Positions 4,154 through 59,767 of a stretch of 59,768 nt of DNA are shown in pieces. The stretch lies in NCBI GenBank assembly GCA_002706365.1, contig PALM01000023.1:1-59768 (forward strand). Direction: 5' to 3'. The notes beneath the pieces are model-generated. The model was not told the DNA's origin. It did not search any database and worked only from the letters and a program-made list of their open reading frames with translations. This stretch comes from Flavobacteriales bacterium (lineage in GTDB: Bacteria; Bacteroidota; Bacteroidia; Flavobacteriales_E; Vicingaceae). Position 1 is the first letter of the stretch, and each line of letters starts with the position of its first letter. Position numbers and translations under genes: made by a program.

Positions 4154-5306
4154 ACCCGCACCTCCTGCACATATAGAGATCAGTAGATCAGCTGTAAAAC
4201 ACAATCTGGAATTTCTAAAGAAAATGATAGGAGAGGAGGTGCTTTTTACTTCTGTAGTAAAAGGCAATGCCTATGGTCATGGAATTGAAGAGTACTGTTC
4301 CCTTGCTCTGGAAGCAGGGGTGAAGAATTTCTGCACTTATAGTGCTGATGAAGCTTTCAGGGTTTGGGAAGCTACAGAAGGGAAAGCTAAGATCATTGTT
4401 ATGGGCTATAAGAGTATTGAGGCTCTGGAGTGGATGATAGCGAATGGCATTGAGTTCTTTGTTTTTGAAGAAGGCTTCTTAAAAGAAGCCAAAAAGGTGG
4501 CTGAAAGCGTTGGGAAGACAGCAGAAATTCATCTTGAGATTGAAACGGGAATGAATCGGACTGGGATTGAGGTTGAACGATTAGATCCAATCTTGGAATA
4601 TATCAATCAGCATGCAGATCAATTGCATCTAGCAGGCATTTGCACTCATTTTGCGGGTGCCGAGAGTATTAGTAACTATTACAGAGTTCAGAAACAACAT
4701 AAGGTATTCTACGGAGTGGTGAAACATTTGAAGAGCATACAAAAGCTACCTCCTAAAGTCCATGCCGCCTGTTCCGCGGCCAGTTTAAGGTTACCCAAGA
4801 GTAGATACAATATGGTGCGTATTGGCATTATGCAATACGGCTTCTTTCCTTCTAATGAAAGCTGGGTTGAATATGCGAGTAAGGAAAACAATATGGAGTT
4901 TCCATTGAAGAGAGTCATCAGCTGGAAATCTAAAGTAATGAGCATCAAAGAGGTTCAAACAGGAGAATTCATTGGCTATGGAACCTCCTATTTTGCCAAC
5001 TCACCTACTAAGATAGCCATTGTTCCGGTTGGATATGGCTTGGGATTCGATCGCGACTTGAGTAATCAAGGTAAGGTTTTGATCGGCGGACAAAGAGTGA
5101 ATGTTATAGGGATCGTAAATATGAATGCCTTAACAGTTGATATTTCGGGATTGGATGATGTGAAAGTTGGCGATGAAGTGGTGTTGATCGGTAAACAAGG
5201 AGAATCTGAGATATCGGTCGCTTCATTTAGTGATATCTCTAAACTGGTGAATTACGAGCTACTTACGCGTTTGCCTTCTGAGATTCCTCGTCTTATCGTT
5301 GATTAA
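4146..5306 (+). CDS. alr: Alanine racemase
   Basis: This 386-residue fold-type III PLP enzyme interconverts L- and D-alanine, supplying D-Ala for peptidoglycan. The PLP lysine is Lys39 in VVKGNAYGHG, and the C-terminal catalytic Tyr region is GYGTSYFA near residue 280. The PLP-phosphate region RIGIMQYGF is present. The usual C-terminal GRVCMDQ-type motif is replaced by GIVNMNALTVD, a variant that may mark a second racemase or altered substrate preference. It overlaps the M20 gene by 8 bases. Together with the symporter this suggests uptake, deacylation and racemization of an amino acid, which is inference; a plain cell-wall role is also possible. Confidence 0.9.
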   Translation: MDKPAPPAHIEISRSAVKHNLEFLKKMIGEEVLFTSVVKGNAYGHGIEEYCSLALEAGVKNFCTYSADEAFRVWEATEGKAKIIVMGYKSIEALEWMIANGIEFFVFEEGFLKEAKKVAESVGKTAEIHLEIETGMNRTGIEVERLDPILEYINQHADQLHLAGICTHFAGAESISNYYRVQKQHKVFYGVVKHLKSIQKLPPKVHAACSAASLRLPKSRYNMVRIGIMQYGFFPSNESWVEYASKENNMEFPLKRVISWKSKVMSIKEVQTGEFIGYGTSYFANSPTKIAIVPVGYGLGFDRDLSNQGKVLIGGQRVNVIGIVNMNALTVDISGLDDVKVGDEVVLIGKQGESEISVASFSDISKLVNYELLTRLPSEIPRLIVD

Positions 5307-5318
5307 GATTTCAATTGT

Positions 5319-6041
5319 CTAATCGATCACCAAGAAATATTGAAACATTAGTGTAATCGCATTCTTGGCCAGGGTGTTTTCTGTACTTATGAACTCTTCA
5401 TATTTGATCGATATACCTAGCTCACTAGTGTTTTGAAATCTATGCACCCCTTTCAATGAGAATTGATTGGAGTTTGGAAATCGTTCTTCACTAATGGGGT
5501 CTCTCAAAAAGTACCATTCCATAGTTCCAACTATAAACCAATCAGAGAGTTCACTCTCATTGTTCCGCAATTGATAGATCATACTTGCGCGATATCTACT
5601 TCTAAAATAGTTATCTCGACTAGATGCATTGAACAACCTCCATTCACCTTTTAATTGTTGAACAATGGTAAATTGCTTGTGGAGTTTCAAATCATAACGA
5701 ATAGCGAGCCATGGTCTTTGCTCAGAAAAATTTGGTGTTTCAGAACCAAAGGTATATGCGTATGAAAAGCCACTGTAGGCTGTCCATCTCTTAAGGATAG
5801 ACCTTCTCATTATTAATTCAAGTCGAATTCGTTGCCATCCGTTCTGATCAATGAATCTCTTCCAGTTTCCTTTTCCCTCAATTGCAAAACGATCCTTCTG
5901 CCAAATTCTGTTGCTGATCTCCGCTTCGCTAAAGCTTTCAGTTTGGGCAAGCAATTTTGAATTAGCCTGCATAATGACTATCAAAACGGTAATAGAGAAA
6001 AGCTTGAGTATCGACTTATTTCCTACTTGACAAAACTTCAT
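5319..6041 (-). CDS. DUF2490 family outer-membrane protein
   Basis: This 240-residue protein has an N-terminal signal sequence (cleavage likely after NSKLLAQ) and the DUF2490 pattern: repeated amphipathic strands, a WQKDRFAIEGKGNWKRFI region, an RLELIMRRSIL strand and a C-terminal aromatic strand ending in MFQYFLVID. DUF2490 proteins are predicted beta-barrels common in Bacteroidota with no assigned function. It overlaps the upstream hypothetical gene by 26 bases and converges on alr with a 12-base gap. The start could be a few codons later, since the signal sequence is preceded by a polar stretch. Confidence 0.85.
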   Translation of the reverse strand: MKFCQVGNKSILKLFSITVLIVIMQANSKLLAQTESFSEAEISNRIWQKDRFAIEGKGNWKRFIDQNGWQRIRLELIMRRSILKRWTAYSGFSYAYTFGSETPNFSEQRPWLAIRYDLKLHKQFTIVQQLKGEWRLFNASSRDNYFRSRYRASMIYQLRNNESELSDWFIVGTMEWYFLRDPISEERFPNSNQFSLKGVHRFQNTSELGISIKYEEFISTENTLAKNAITLMFQYFLVID

Positions 6042-6567
6042 GATCTTCTAAAGCTGAACCCTCAATATTCACCGCAAGACTTAGGTTAATGATTTTTAAT
6101 TGAGTCGTTTTTTTGATGCGAACTTTCGGATTGAAGGTCGCTTTGATTAACATACCTAAACCAAAAGCCACTGCTCCAAATTGATAAGCAGATCGATGAA
6201 CAATTGGTGCGTCATCGTTTATAATTCTATTTGTGGTGGATATTGCTGCATAGCCTAGTCCAGCCGTTATAAGTACATCTGATACAATCTCAGCACCCTT
6301 GGCTTTATCTTCTAAGTAAACTGTCTTTATTTCAGAAAGTGGGATAGTATCCTTGGCAATTACTATAGAGGAATCTAATAGTCGGTTCAATGGACCAATA
6401 TGTATTGCTTTATCTACGGTTTTAATACGCATAAGATCTCCCGGAAGTATGCGGTATCTCTTGGGCCTATGCAATCTATCAACTGCCAGGAATTTAGAAT
6501 GAAATCCCGTCTGGGCAAATGAGTCGAATGCAAAGAATAACAGAAATGCGATTATAGTGAAGCGCAT
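6016..6567 (-). CDS. Exported protein of unknown function
   Basis: This 183-residue protein starts with a signal peptide (MRFTIIAFLLFFAFDSFAQ). The mature part holds a basic segment (RLHRPKRYRILPGD), a region resembling Bacteroidota proteins that describe lipid- or membrane-linked small beta domains, and a central hydrophobic stretch (SDVLITAGLGYAAI). I do not recognise a named family. It is probably periplasmic or outer-membrane associated. It overlaps the DUF2490 gene downstream by 26 bases, so the two are probably co-expressed and may function together. Confidence 0.75.
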   Translation of the reverse strand: MRFTIIAFLLFFAFDSFAQTGFHSKFLAVDRLHRPKRYRILPGDLMRIKTVDKAIHIGPLNRLLDSSIVIAKDTIPLSEIKTVYLEDKAKGAEIVSDVLITAGLGYAAISTTNRIINDDAPIVHRSAYQFGAVAFGLGMLIKATFNPKVRIKKTTQLKIINLSLAVNIEGSALEDHEVLSSRK

Positions 6568-6708
6568 TGATGAAAGTTAGGAATTAAAAAGTATTTATTT
6601 ATTGGGTCACAGAGCCCCGACTTCGTCGGGCTACGCAGAGAAGGCACAGAGAACGTAGAGCCCTCAGTGTCTTCCCTGAGGTCCCCTGTGAGCCAGTAAG
6701 AATATCTC
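6568..6708. repeat. CACAGAG-type dispersed repeat with embedded hairpin
   Basis: A CCCGAC-TTC-GTCGGG stem-loop (6616-6630) is embedded in CACAGAG/GAAGGCACAGAG sequence. The same layout appears at 36051-36090, where the stem is CCCAAC/GTTGGG, so the pairing is kept although the sequence changed. A minus-strand ORF crossing this stretch is judged spurious. Confidence 0.75.
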
Positions 6709-7635
6709 TTAACTCCCAAACCGCAATCCGACTCCAAAGTCAATTCGTTGAAGGCCGATGTAATCTTCTGTATCCTCAAATTCTACTATTCTTCTACCAT
6801 TGACATCATTCACCTCAATTTCAGAAAGACTGCCACCATAGATTGAAAGCTGAAGACCTAGATATAGGTTCTTGTCGACTTTAATATCATAACCCAGATC
6901 GAAACCTAGACCCACAGTGCTGCCTTCAATTGTAATCGGGTCGATCACTTCTGCATCATTCATATAGCCCATGTAACCTATGAAGAAGGTCACAAAGAAT
7001 GCATTTTCCCCATTTCTATCAACTGAGCGGAAAGTACCAGATGGTCCAATAAAATTGATCCTGATATCATCAGAGATCCGTCCGGCTCCGATCACATTGC
7101 CCATTGCATCTGTGATCACAATATTATCCAATGAGTTGTCGGTTAGGAAGCTGGAATATTTGAAACCAATACCAAACTCTTTATTGATGAATACCTGAGC
7201 ATCCAAGCTAAAACTCAAGCCCCATTTCAATTCCCTAATATAATCTTCTAGTAAATCGTCGAGTCCATCTTCAATAGCTGCCAGTTGGTATGATGGTCCA
7301 ACTGTAAATCCGAGACGGAAACCGCTTGCGCCGCTCGATTGATTAGCTGTGCTAGATGTTCCATTAACTGTAGCACTTGAACCTTTTATCTTTTTGCTTC
7401 CTTCTTTTCTGTAGGAGTATTGAAAATAATCTACCTCGCTTAACTGCATACTAAAGGACTCAAATCCATTTTCAGATTTGGCGGTATAATTGATCTTTGA
7501 TTGATCCACTCTAGTGATGGCACAGATAATGGAATCTCCATTTGTCTTTACGATCAAGTCTTGGGCAACTAATCCATCCGACAATCCCAACAGGAAAATA
7601 GCGATAAGTATGTAGTAGAGTCTTCTTAATGGCAT
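6709..7635 (-). CDS. Outer-membrane beta-barrel protein
   Basis: This 308-residue protein has a signal peptide ending near GLVAQ, then a small N-terminal domain (DLIVKTNGDSIICAITRVD) common in Bacteroidota exported proteins. A Ser/Thr/Gly-rich linker near residues 85-105 leads into a C-terminal porin-like barrel of alternating strands that ends RIDFGVGLRFGS. The product is predicted to sit in the outer membrane; no ligand can be assigned. It is followed on the same strand by two more envelope genes after a 141-base repeat-containing gap, so co-transcription is uncertain. Confidence 0.82.
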   Translation of the reverse strand: MPLRRLYYILIAIFLLGLSDGLVAQDLIVKTNGDSIICAITRVDQSKINYTAKSENGFESFSMQLSEVDYFQYSYRKEGSKKIKGSSATVNGTSSTANQSSGASGFRLGFTVGPSYQLAAIEDGLDDLLEDYIRELKWGLSFSLDAQVFINKEFGIGFKYSSFLTDNSLDNIVITDAMGNVIGAGRISDDIRINFIGPSGTFRSVDRNGENAFFVTFFIGYMGYMNDAEVIDPITIEGSTVGLGFDLGYDIKVDKNLYLGLQLSIYGGSLSEIEVNDVNGRRIVEFEDTEDYIGLQRIDFGVGLRFGS

Positions 7636-56250: not shown

Positions 56251-57333
56251 TTAATTCACAAGATGAGAATAAGGGTTCCTACCGAATAGATCAGTATGGA
56301 CAACTTGTTTGAAAACATGCTGTGCATTATCCAATGTATTCTGGATTGATTTAGATGGACGAAGCTTGTCCTGTCTAGCGTGAAATTTGTAGGCAACTAC
56401 TGCGTTGCGAATATCTTTGTAAACTACTTCTGGGAATTGGTAGTTATAAGCCTCAAACATGGCTTTATTAGAAAGCTCATTACTGAGTTCCAATGCCTCC
56501 TCAAGACAGTCGTGCTTTATTAGGTGATAACACTGTACTTGAGATAGGATATTTTGTAAGTGAAACCTTTTAAGACCAAAAGCCAAAGAATCGATTTGAT
56601 TTTTACAATTGAATAGTAAAGTCTCAATATCGACTTTGCCATCTTTGAGCAATTGATCTTGTCCTACTAGTACTACCAATTCAATTTTGGCAAGATTAGC
56701 AAGACAATTAAGGTTTTTAGATTCGGGGTGATTTTCAGATAAGGTTCTCAATAATTTGAAATCCTGGATCATATCCCGAACTAGAGTAGGATTTGCATTA
56801 TGAAGGTAATTTTCTACCTTATTATGCATTCCCACTAAAATTTGAAGAGCAGCTGAGATCAAAGAGTCGAGCTCTTTGTATTTTAAATAAAGATGACGAT
56901 AAACAGTTTCCAACTGGCTACCTTGACTTAGAAGGTAGAGTTCAGATAGGAGGGAAGAGGCTTCCTCTTCGATCTCGTAGCGCTTCATAGCATGGAAGTA
57001 GTCTTCCAGCTCTTCAATTCTTTCTGATTTTTCTTTTTTAGAGTTTCCGTTAAGTGCGTAAAAAACGGTGGTTGCTAAAACATCCTTCATTGAGTGATCT
57101 TCCAGGCCGAAGTATCTAAGGATGGTAAGGTAAATGATTCTTTCAAAGATCTTGAAGGACTTCTCATCAAGACTTAGTTCATTTTGAACTGTAGTGGTCT
57201 CTGCTTCTGCGCGGTACGCATCGAAGATCTTAAGGCTGATTTCAGCATAGGTAAGATCCTTCTCAAGCAAAGCTCTAATATCAGCGGCTGCCTGCTCCCT
57301 GAGTTGCTTTACTATTTCGTTGATTGCCTTCAT
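56251..57333 (-). CDS. All-helical protein of unknown function
   Basis: This 360-residue cytoplasmic protein has no signal peptide and no catalytic motif I can recognise. Predicted structure is almost wholly helical, resembling TPR-like or alpha-solenoid folds (for example EEEASSLLSELYLLSQGS and VYRHLYLKYKELDSLISAAL, ending FGRNPYSHLVN). It lies next to the small exported-peptide gene and the divergent 541-residue helical protein. Helical regulators that bind peptides exist in other phyla, so a peptide-linked role is possible but inferred. A terminator follows at 56194-56224. Confidence 0.7.
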   Translation of the reverse strand: MKAINEIVKQLREQAAADIRALLEKDLTYAEISLKIFDAYRAEAETTTVQNELSLDEKSFKIFERIIYLTILRYFGLEDHSMKDVLATTVFYALNGNSKKEKSERIEELEDYFHAMKRYEIEEEASSLLSELYLLSQGSQLETVYRHLYLKYKELDSLISAALQILVGMHNKVENYLHNANPTLVRDMIQDFKLLRTLSENHPESKNLNCLANLAKIELVVLVGQDQLLKDGKVDIETLLFNCKNQIDSLAFGLKRFHLQNILSQVQCYHLIKHDCLEEALELSNELSNKAMFEAYNYQFPEVVYKDIRNAVVAYKFHARQDKLRPSKSIQNTLDNAQHVFKQVVHTDLFGRNPYSHLVN

Positions 57334-57541
57334 ATTACACCGTTTGTTTTGAATTACGATGTAAAAGTATGGGCATACCTATTCTATATATAGGACAATA
57401 TGCATCCTATATCTTCAACTAGAATGCGTTAAAAATAAAGGTAGGATAAAACTATCTACCTGTGTATCAGCACAGTATGTAGTCTATAGATTCTTCAACT
57501 AAAATCGTATATTTGAAGAATCAATATTTAGCTAAAATCTA

Positions 57542-57697
57542 CTATGGCCACTCCATCGAACCGCCGCCACCATCAACTTCAGTCGAAGTTCCAGCTATCG
57601 CAATCTCTTGCTTTAGTTGATCTTCAGAATAATTTTGATAGTCGGCTGGAGTACCATAACCGAGAAGAGAAATTAGGATTGTAATTAAAGCTGTCAT
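57542..57697 (-). CDS. Candidate exported peptide precursor
   Basis: This 51-residue ORF starts at ATG 57697 and ends in TAG. It has a hydrophobic, signal-like N-terminus (MTALITILISLLGYGTPA), a polar, acidic middle (DYQNYSEDQLKQEIAIAG) and a glycine-rich tail (TEVDGGGGSMEWP). A TTG-N19-TATGTTTG promoter lies just upstream. Its position between two large helical proteins of unknown function resembles peptide-pheromone and receptor pairs. It is equally possible that it is a small secreted or membrane-active peptide. It was too short to be picked by usual ORF limits. Confidence 0.6.
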   Translation of the reverse strand: MTALITILISLLGYGTPADYQNYSEDQLKQEIAIAGTSTEVDGGGGSMEWP

Positions 57698-57722
57698 CTT
57701 TACTTTTTGTTAGTAATTAATA

Positions 57723-57752
57723 CAAACATATACAGGCGAAGGTCCATGGCAA
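57723..57752 (-). promoter_or_regulatory. Consensus promoter for the small-peptide gene
   Basis: On the minus strand TTG, 19 bases, then TATGTTTG. This fits the Bacteroidota -33/-7 consensus and lies 25 bases before the ATG at 57697. Confidence 0.7.
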
Positions 57753-57861
57753 TAGGACACTTCTTCTGTATTTTCTTCAATTAAAAGTAGTTAAAATTTG
57801 TGAAAGGGCTATAGAACGCCCATCAAAAGGAGAGTATTTTGAAAAACAGCTTCCTCAAGTA

Positions 57862-59487
57862 ATGAGTCAAGAGAATTATAATAACCTCCAAGAATTAGCA
57901 AATTCACTAAAAGAGGAAGAAATTAACTTAGCAAAAAAGCATTTAGTTGCTTTTGAGAGTTATCGTACGAAGACTCCATCACAAATGTTGCGTTTATTTA
58001 AATTAATTTTAAAAACGCCTGATATTCAGCTAGATAAAGCCAAGCGGTCAGTATCCCCTGATAACACATTAAAATCATTTAACCAGTTAGTTAAAAGAAC
58101 ACTGGATAGGGTTTTGGAATCCCTAATTCTTGATATCAATATCTCAAGAGGCGATCTATATAGTCCAGTATTTCAATATAGATTCAAAATAAGAAAGCTT
58201 ATTATGCAGGCTTCAATACTTCAAGGTAGGGGCTTGTCAAGTTTTTCTTTAAAAAATTTCAATTGGATAATAAAGACAGCTAAGAAGTATGAATTGTACG
58301 ATGAGCTTATAGAAACACTGTATTTAAAACAAGCGGTAGTTTTTAATAGAGATGGGCAGAAAGCATATGATAAGATAGCTGAAGAGATTGATTATTATGA
58401 GTCTTGTCGAAATCTTTTAAGGAAGTCAAAGGATTTGTATCGGTCTTTTTATGCAAGAGCTTCTTTTCAAGCTAATACAAAAAAACTGGTCTCAGAGTTA
58501 GAGTCAAGTTTAGCAAAGTTGGAGGAGGATAATAAAGAGTTAAAATCAGCCAACGTTAGTTTGTATATCTATCCATTGAAAATGGAAAGTGCAACACTTA
58601 AAAAGGACTTTGATGCCGGGTTAGATATTGGACTAAGGTTCATTGAGCTTTTGAAAACTAACCCTTCTATCTATTCCAAAATTAGAATTGGAATCTATTA
58701 CTCTAACCTAGCAGATAATGAAATTAGTGCATTTAGGTTTTCTAGCTCTCAACGGTTTTCGAATTACGCAATAGACTACTTAAGAGACAGGATGACCATT
58801 AATAATGTTATAGCAATTGAATTAAATGCTTTAGGTTTTTTCTTTGATGCAAAGTATCAAGATAGTTTAAAGTCAATAGATTCAATTATGAATGAACCAA
58901 TTATTGATAGATACAAATTACATAAGACCAAACTTTTTTATTACAAGGCTATGTCCTATTTCGCCCTGGAAGACTATAAAAAAGCATATTTACTTTTAAA
59001 TAACCTTCCCGACCTAGAGAAAGATAAGGAAGGGTGGAATGTGTGGATTAGAATAATGAGGATCATCTGCTCAATTGAACAAGAAAAAATCAATTTGATT
59101 GATTATGACCTTGAAAGTTTTAGGAAGTATATTCAAAGGGTAGAAAAGAAGTCTGAGATTATAGAAAGAGACAAGATAATCTTAAAGTTATTAATTGAGT
59201 TAGAAAAAAATGATTTTGACTATATATACATGCAGGATATTAAGTCTTTTAATAAAGACTTAGATAAAATACAATCAGTGAGTGGAGAGTACCTTTGGAA
59301 ACCAAACTCTCCTGAGTTAATCATATTTGATATTTGGCTAAAAGCAAAGATTAGTAATAATAGCTATCTAAATGAGTATGAAAAATTTAAGAAAAACTTA
59401 ACTCCTCAAAATAAAAATGTTTTGATAGTTCCTAGTAATGATGTAAATTCAAAACAAAGTCAAAGCCAGTTATCAATTGAGTTTTAA
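57862..59487 (+). CDS. Large all-helical protein of unknown function
   Basis: This 541-residue cytoplasmic protein has no signal or membrane segment and is predicted to be helical throughout. A charged N-terminal domain (KEEEINLAKKHLVAFESYRT, then LRLFKLILKTPDIQ) precedes TPR-like helical pairs (for example KLFYYKAMSYFALEDYKKAY). No catalytic motif is visible. Base composition is clearly more AT-rich than the neighbouring housekeeping genes. The last 11 bases overlap the following 84-codon gene. The layout resembles helical regulator families, but no DNA-binding motif is seen, so the function is open. Confidence 0.7.
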   Translation: MSQENYNNLQELANSLKEEEINLAKKHLVAFESYRTKTPSQMLRLFKLILKTPDIQLDKAKRSVSPDNTLKSFNQLVKRTLDRVLESLILDINISRGDLYSPVFQYRFKIRKLIMQASILQGRGLSSFSLKNFNWIIKTAKKYELYDELIETLYLKQAVVFNRDGQKAYDKIAEEIDYYESCRNLLRKSKDLYRSFYARASFQANTKKLVSELESSLAKLEEDNKELKSANVSLYIYPLKMESATLKKDFDAGLDIGLRFIELLKTNPSIYSKIRIGIYYSNLADNEISAFRFSSSQRFSNYAIDYLRDRMTINNVIAIELNALGFFFDAKYQDSLKSIDSIMNEPIIDRYKLHKTKLFYYKAMSYFALEDYKKAYLLLNNLPDLEKDKEGWNVWIRIMRIICSIEQEKINLIDYDLESFRKYIQRVEKKSEIIERDKIILKLLIELEKNDFDYIYMQDIKSFNKDLDKIQSVSGEYLWKPNSPELIIFDIWLKAKISNNSYLNEYEKFKKNLTPQNKNVLIVPSNDVNSKQSQSQLSIEF

Positions 59488-59731
59488 AGATTTAGATTTT
59501 TTAAATGACATTCTACCAACTCTATCGAGCTCAGAAACTCGATTAGTTAAAAAACTTATTCACGTTCAATTTAATGGGGTGGTTAGTAAGAAGCTAGAAA
59601 ATCTACTTAATAGATTAAAGAACCCTAAGGGAGCTCAATTTTTAAAAAATGAGATTTTTAAATCTAGCCTTGATGTAACCTTCCCTTTTCTCGAACCGGG
59701 TATAAATGTACTTTATCTTTCATTTAGTTAA
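59477..59731 (+). CDS. Small helical protein resembling the N-terminal domain of the preceding protein
   Basis: This 84-residue ORF starts at TTG 59477, overlapping the stop of the 541-residue gene by 11 bases, and ends in TAA. The pattern NDILPTLSSSETRLVKKL followed by KKLENLLNRLKNPK resembles the start of the preceding protein (LKEEEINLAKKHL, then LRLFKLILKTP). It may be a stand-alone domain, an inhibitor-like partner or a truncated duplicate. There is no signal peptide. The similarity was judged by eye only. Confidence 0.5.
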   Translation: MSFKDLDFLNDILPTLSSSETRLVKKLIHVQFNGVVSKKLENLLNRLKNPKGAQFLKNEIFKSSLDVTFPFLEPGINVLYLSFS

Positions 59732-59737
59732 GGTTCA

Positions 59738-59767
59738 CTTCATCAAAGCAAGCTTGCTTTGATGAAG
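59738..59767 (+). terminator. Perfect 30-base palindrome after the helical genes
   Basis: CTTCATCAAAGCAAG is followed directly by its reverse complement, with no loop bases, 6 bases after the last stop codon. It is probably a terminator or dispersed repeat; the window ends before any T-tract can be judged. Confidence 0.6.

Follow-up and report, generated by a model that had tools for sequence, protein, structure and literature searches.

Peptide quorum sensing through tetratricopeptide repeat (TPR) receptors has so far been treated as a trait of the Bacillota. In the RRNPP or RRNPPA systems (Rap-Phr, NprR-NprX, PlcR-PapR, AimR-AimP and Rgg-SHP), a small precursor gene adjoins the gene for a TPR protein, and the propeptides are secreted by Sec or, in the case of the short hydrophobic peptides (SHPs), by PptAB. 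Two large surveys of these systems covered Bacillota only (PMC10075063, PMC9765709). Here we describe a locus of similar layout from the Bacteroidota. It lies in a 59,768-nucleotide contig (PALM01000023.1 of assembly GCA_002706365.1; hereafter the window), one contig of the 3.0-Mb genome of a Flavobacteriales bacterium of the family Vicingaceae. A gene for a 360-aa helical protein (56251..57333, minus strand) and a 51-codon peptide gene (57542..57697, minus strand) are co-directional, and the gene for a 541-aa TPR-type protein (57862..59487, plus strand), the proposed receptor or regulator of the peptide, diverges from both. We give a probability of roughly 0.55 to the reading that peptide and TPR protein are a ligand and receptor pair that works like RRNPP systems without being a member of them by sequence. 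Our literature search found no peptide signalling of the RRNPP-like kind for Bacteroidota; subscription journals and preprints lay outside that search, and absence in it is not proof.

Compared with the properties by which RRNPP membership is defined (PMC10075063), the locus shares several and departs in others. RRNPP propeptides have 10-100 aa, and the product here has 51 aa, is conserved and is under purifying selection. Receptor and propeptide genes are adjacent; here they lie 164 bp apart, divergently, in an arrangement conserved in nine genomes. The receptors are built of TPRs, as the 541-aa protein is predicted to be from its AlphaFold2 (AF2) model, its structural matches and the TPR profiles that match its relatives. 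At 541 aa, in a family of mostly 480-550 aa, the candidate receptor exceeds the 250-500 aa of RRNPP receptors, and it has no recognisable sequence homology to a known RRNPPA subfamily. The locus differs further in its phylum, in its divergent genes, in the extra 360-aa gene of the window's family, in leaders that have neither Lys nor Arg, and in an N-terminal domain of the 541-aa protein, modelled as five helices, that sequence searches do not recognise; RRNPPA proteins have an XRE-type helix-turn-helix (HTH) or a Rap-type three-helix bundle at that end. Rgg-SHP pairs likewise place a very short hydrophobic precursor beside a TPR-type regulator, whereas the present precursors have a greater length (median 55 aa) and tails that are acidic and hydrophilic, and no XRE HTH was recognised in their neighbours.

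A conserved pairing of small genes with a TPR protein

The three genes form a cassette that is conserved in Vicingaceae far beyond chance. Relatives of the 541-aa protein occur in 21 of 60 genomes, and homologues of the 360-aa protein in eight of 60, every one of them inside the cassette. Peptide homologues were found in nine of 46 genomes of the family, each time with the 541 gene adjoining. The 360 gene follows the peptide gene in eight of these nine; the ninth (G019) has its cassette divided between two contigs, the second of which holds the remainder of the peptide gene and a divergent 360 homologue. Among the relatives with named records, all of them Flavobacteriales of this or another family, is a cultured carrier, Acidiluteibacter ferrifornacis S-15.

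The 51-codon open reading frame (ORF) is a true gene under purifying selection. Nonsynonymous divergence (pN) is lower than synonymous divergence (pS) in all 36 peptide pairs (mean 0.32 vs 0.64), which rules out a non-coding or spurious frame. Its product begins with a conserved hydrophobic leader, MTALITILISLLGYGTPADY, continues through an acidic linker and ends in a Gly-rich tail with Trp (consensus MTxLITLLISLLGYGTPADYxxxTExQLxxEIxxAQ...DGGGxxxWD). One genome (G036) carries two copies in tandem.

AF2 models of the 360-aa and 541-aa proteins are both all-helical, as the sequence-only reading (an earlier annotation made from the DNA letters) had proposed. For the 541-aa protein (pLDDT 84.4, pTM 0.80), the model firmly predicts a TPR superhelix. 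Rap and NprR head its VIA-align structural list, with Rap of pLS20 at Z 21.7, Rap with CSF at 21.0, RapI at 20.6 and NprR at 20.1, and lower rows include RapH, RapF and AimR (Z 19.1 to 15.7) and kinesin light chain (17.8). Pfam TPR_2 matches 32 of 85 relatives; the window's 541-aa protein on its own has no TPR match in Pfam. The best conserved segment of the family, DKxGWN, reads DKEGWN in the window (residues 388-393; 59023..59040, plus strand). Across 16 diverse members, G391 is invariant and D388, K389 and W392 are each conserved in at least 90%.

The pairing extends well beyond Vicingaceae. Matches to the TPR family occur in 110 of 247 Bacteroidia genomes and in 86 of 198 genomes across the phylum, the weaker of which are possibly other TPR proteins. 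About 100 loci were taken for upstream inspection, and the 85 relatives are the set that is non-redundant at 60% identity. A partner was counted when an ORF of 35-130 codons, divergent and starting with a hydrophobic leader, lay no more than 600 bp away, and 39 of the 85 have one. Shuffled regions gave 4.9%, a search of the same strand gave 5 of 85, and control genes gave 5 of 42; these enrichment figures are descriptive, since the relatives sampled are not independent of one another phylogenetically. Homologues in many families stand beside small ORFs whose N-termini are hydrophobic, several of them in tandem or with internal repeats, an outcome in favour of the sequence-only reading.

A second labelling of the partners gave 28 of class A and 16 of class B, after two had been struck out by eye; class A matches at L130 and L158 and an f4 match at L112 were judged spurious by eye. 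Class A partners are mostly 45-80 aa long and belong to many unrelated families. Class B partners have about 100 aa and Lys-rich Sec-type leaders, and many carry a CGVxxxQIxxYLxxxGY...GHxD domain that is unnamed in Pfam and NCBIfam. They lie divergently upstream of the TPR gene at L064, L067, L068, L120, L122-L125, L129, L138, L140, L142, L143, L145, L156 and L175. Partner class is clustered on the tree of the TPR proteins, with 20 changes where shuffles give 36 (none of 200 shuffles was as low), and a single supported clade (SH-aLRT 97) contains all 16 class B partners and no class A. In a second TPR subfamily, an ORF of 124-165 aa recurs behind the peptide, 500-700 bp beyond the TPR start (L163, L165, L169); the L165 and L169 versions are similar (LAFSxxxLxYLxPFIxxL).

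These distributions bear on whether the TPR protein and the small ORF might be chance neighbours, functionally unrelated and held together by a common promoter space. For roughly half of the relatives no partner was detected, as chance would allow. Against it stand an enrichment of about nine-fold over shuffles, the exclusive co-occurrence within Vicingaceae and the way in which partner type tracks the TPR tree, and we regard coincidence as very improbable.

Precursor-like features and competing explanations

Class A precursors have a variable linker and a conserved C-terminus (IITNDETGM, IIGLEETDF, IIWETNEK). Examples are MISAISTILIAASLLIGSGS...IITNDETGM, present in one to four tandem copies, MELLIAVLIAFGVVSS...IIGLEETDF, MATLLAILLSLNLITS...IIWETNEK, in three tandem copies, and MSTLILLVSMLFNSGTSFDIIVDEIAHRSGKDIIVDEIAHYAGSDIIVDEIAH. 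Two to four peptide genes stand in tandem at L062, L109, L150, L161, L184 and L188. Tandem copies differ at silent sites and hardly in protein (L150: pS 0.49, pN 0.02), and the peptides of the family, tandem copies included, are under purifying selection. Some precursors repeat a short peptide internally: DIIVDEIAH occurs three times at L161, the repeat reads DIIVDEIGH at L166, and a KPSTMFDQTDGVRA-type repeat occurs five times at L167. This is a further likeness to RRNPP systems, among which Phr105 also carries identical internal repeats (PMC11343458). Since tandem precursors, internal repeats, linkers that vary ahead of conserved ends and a TPR neighbour are marks of peptide-pheromone systems, the TPR protein is most likely the receptor of the neighbouring peptide.

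Several observations weigh against a ligand and receptor pair of this kind. Eukaryotic LGN TPRs reach Z 20.0 in VIA-align, nearly equal to Rap, and Foldseek places LGN first, with NprR and Rap from rank 14. The likeness of the modelled fold to RRNPP receptors would therefore be the best but not exclusive, and fold alone does not single them out. The N-terminal five-helix domain (residues 1-87; 57862..58122, plus strand), in which helices 41-51, 57-64 and 70-87 follow two others in the AF2 model, has no HTH match in Pfam and no sequence match in the PDB, so an N-terminal HTH finds no support there; the domain could possibly bind DNA or protein. In the window's subfamily, the C-terminus of the peptide is less conserved than the leader, whereas a conserved mature pheromone would give the reverse. 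To these are added the relatives, about half, that have no detected small partner, and the absence of Lys and Arg from the first 12 residues of all 28 class A short leaders, unlike Sec signals. A search of all PDB chains with the family profile found designed TPRs, kinesin light chain and LGN, and no RRNPP chain at E<=10. The signal-like N-terminus of the sequence-only reading has to be qualified: a hydrophobic leader is present, yet the short leaders without Lys or Arg do not resemble classical Sec signals.

Export by the ordinary Sec route is made less likely by the uncharged leader, which is compatible with a switch that works by membrane tethering. Under such a scheme, the small protein would stay in the producing cell, its leader held in the inner membrane and its tail tethering or titrating the TPR protein, as an intracellular switch rather than a pheromone. 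Across 30 sequences, the first 12 residues hold no Lys or Arg and 15 Asp or Glu, often next to the start; conservation in the window's family is highest in the leader, and repeated tail motifs could allow multivalent binding. However, the hydrophobic stretch of about 11-15 residues is short for a membrane helix, the tails vary among families with repeats split by variable spacers as in cleaved precursors, and a second clade of the same TPR family pairs with plainly Sec-type proteins of about 100 aa. We consider a tether of this kind unlikely.

More doubtful still is that the product of the small gene is a toxin or bacteriocin acting on membranes, which the TPR protein, and perhaps the 360-aa protein, regulates or gives immunity to. 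Tandem short hydrophobic peptides do recall type I toxins and leaderless bacteriocins, and the cassette has been lost or has decayed in some relatives (G026, G030). The leader nevertheless has no basic residues, the tails are acidic, and what is repeated internally is a short hydrophilic peptide. The peptides have no Pfam or NCBIfam match at cut-off, known toxin, antitoxin and bacteriocin families included; PADLOC gave no match for the 541-aa protein and one stray match in 85 relatives, and the cassette contains no ATP-binding cassette (ABC) or immunity gene.

Repeated acidic cores also resemble the multi-core precursors of ribosomally synthesised and post-translationally modified peptides (RiPPs), for example graspetides, and the small gene could on that account be a RiPP precursor of leader and repeated core, with the TPR protein as its regulator. 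We give this little credence: the locus maps show no recurrent modification enzyme, protease or transporter gene beside the peptide, and the leader is hydrophobic, whereas RiPP leaders are usually hydrophilic.

Control elements and surroundings of the cassette

The sequence-only reading had given the peptide gene a promoter of its own, and the comparison among cassettes bears this out. A Bacteroidota-type -7 box, TATGTTTG (57723..57730, minus strand), is conserved in position, lying 24-40 nt ahead of the peptide start in six of eight cassettes, and a seventh carries the variant TAGTTTTG. A GGACA element (57755..57759, plus strand; TGTCC on the peptide strand) stands 24 nt beyond the box, with a degenerate second half-site, TTCAATTA, near it (within 57774-57796). 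On the 3' side of the gene is a terminator-like hairpin (57485..57526, minus strand) with 17-nt arms that are 88% complementary, and hairpins occupy this position in six of eight cassettes (z -2.9 to -9.0). Framed as it is by the -7 box, the element at fixed distance and the hairpin, the peptide gene looks like a short transcript of its own. No Rfam family or tRNA was found near the locus, and a structured RNA was rejected.

Upstream of the 360 gene lies a conserved promoter core (GAATTACGATGTAAAAGTAT on the plus strand; feature at 57351..57370, minus strand) that is near-identical and in the same place in most cassettes. A GGACA element occupies a fixed position ahead of this gene too (57393..57397, plus strand), with a degenerate second half-site, TCTTCAACTA, about 20 bp further on (57412-57421). 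In total, one strand of 16 intergenic gaps holds 23 GGACA sites, fixed in position, compared with 1.2 expected. In several genomes the element is doubled at about 20 bp, or two helical turns; this doubled pattern has three matches outside cassettes. Of the ten occurrences of the combination TGTCC-N22..26-TATGTTTG in eight genomes, seven belong to cassettes, and the remaining three fall inside unrelated coding sequences or at their start. This suggests that the peptide and 360 genes are under common, local control through a promoter element nearly exclusive to the cassette. A wider regulon was rejected, the other TGTCC/-7 matches in the eight genomes being confined to those unrelated coding sequences.

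The promoter pattern also matches the first codons of a POT-type peptide-transporter gene beside a dipeptidyl-peptidase-like gene in two genomes (L203:1501, L206:1501). Here the coding sequence (ELWGH) probably mimics the pattern; the gene itself is suggestive. A further GGACAATAGAA-like element lies directly ahead of the 541 start codon in the cassettes of G012, G033 and G036, with a variant in G008.

The 360-aa protein (AF2 pLDDT 78) is known from Vicingaceae cassettes only. The sequence-only reading had proposed a search for TPR or RRNPP folds in it as well; Foldseek and VIA-align gave no confident fold match, TPR and RRNPP included. The top Foldseek match, ComR, is not significant (E 0.32), and the VIA-align scores (Z <=11.3) are of the size that common helical arrangements give. 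Aligned with the 541 family, the protein is collinear from the N-terminus and scores 34.8, compared with at most 16.1 for column-shuffled alignments; the HH-suite probability is 0.2-20%. Homology between the two is suggestive only. Probably the 360-aa protein is either an accessory protein or a distant sister of the 541-aa protein.

All four ORFs of the sequence-only reading (360, 51, 541 and 84 codons) are present in the ORF list at the positions claimed, and none of their products is named by Pfam or NCBIfam. The last of them, an 84-codon ORF (59477..59731, plus strand), is not a fourth gene. Its first 65 codons (59477..59673, plus strand) resemble by eye the N-terminus of the 541-aa protein and represent the 5' remnant of a second 541-type gene. 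From position 59674 the frame runs into the end of an insertion sequence, where the contig stops (59674..59768, plus strand); these last 95 bases occur at three places in the genome with 100% identity. The inverted repeat of this 95-base repeat, TGTAACCTTCCC, is also present where contig C12 ends, beside the start of an IS3-like ORF, and the same contig end carries the remainder of a 541 paralogue, with matching synteny. Most likely there were formerly two tandem 541-type genes, as in G008, the second of which was broken by the insertion sequence. A perfect 30-bp palindrome (CTTCATCAAAGCAAGCTTGCTTTGATGAAG, 59738-59767), part of the repeated insertion-sequence end, closes the contig. Where TPR paralogues stand in tandem elsewhere (G008, G048; L054:3379-4986 and 5203-6855, L065:2600-7293), their C-terminal parts are near-identical and their N-terminal parts have diverged, as if by gene conversion.

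The AT-richness reported for the region is confirmed and is mostly due to the 541 gene, which has 30.6% GC against 40.8% (standard deviation 1.5%) in same-size windows elsewhere in the stretch and is the AT-richest gene-sized one. Relatives' 541 genes are likewise AT-richer than their flanks, and in nearly all relatives the cassette lies behind obgE-PAP2-crcB-phosphatase. Because the locus is syntenic across the family and the base composition is common to relatives, the cassette is an old resident rather than a recent island, and the synteny rules out an island acquired by horizontal gene transfer. Two genomes (G026, G030; loci L059, L061) retain decayed remnants between the usual neighbours. 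In G026, transposase genes occupy the expected site of the 360 and peptide genes and the TPR gene is reduced to its C-terminal half; in G030, only short cassette fragments are left.

A possible mode of action and its meaning for Bacteroidota

If peptide and TPR protein are ligand and receptor, the 51-codon gene would give rise to a precursor of short hydrophobic leader, acidic linker and C-terminal peptide. The 541-aa protein would bind the C-terminal peptide within its superhelix, as Rap, NprR and AimR do, and upon binding would switch its partner or target. This target would probably be the promoter element common to the peptide and 360 genes, resulting in autoregulation. On this reading the peptide would be exported and later re-enter the cell, and either the TPR protein or the 360-aa protein would contact DNA. 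Re-import would be possible because OppA-type (SBP_bac_5) binding proteins are present in all eight genomes tested; their presence is permissive only and proves nothing. The RRNPP-like, peptide-receptor proposal of the sequence-only reading is upheld in its TPR fold and its conserved pairing with a small ORF, and falls short in the fold match of the 360-aa protein, the HTH and the classical Sec leader.

Other TPR regulators offer partial parallels. Pfam TPR_MalT matches 11 of the 85 relatives, a likeness to TPR regulators of the MalT and SARP type, from which the family differs in that no NTPase or LuxR HTH domain and no small-molecule context was found. NCBIfam NF058569 (BT2802 family, ribose utilization protein) matches four of the 85 (best E 3.4e-8) and does not match the window's 541-aa protein. 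BT2802 of Bacteroides, which we take to be a candidate regulator (no confirming paper was found), would fit a regulatory role; we know of no small peptide for it. Nor do we know of any gene common to the peptide-TPR system and signalling by N-acyl-cyclolysine. That molecule, the one recent cell signal of the same phylum that our search turned up, differs in being non-peptide (PMC13419125).

On a broader scale, we tentatively suggest, at somewhat less than even odds, that the Bacteroidota have a phylum-wide, undescribed family of systems in which TPR regulators sense cognate short peptides cut from divergent precursors, with a new, uncharged type of leader and many peptide codes. These systems would have evolved independently of the Bacillota RRNPP systems or share a very ancient origin with them. 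Little is known of signalling in Bacteroidota, although they are the dominant bacteria of the gut and plentiful in the sea. If the suggestion is true, it would provide many testable ligand and receptor pairs in this phylum, with candidate ligands readable from sequence, and would pose the problem of how such peptides pass the two membranes of a Gram-negative cell.

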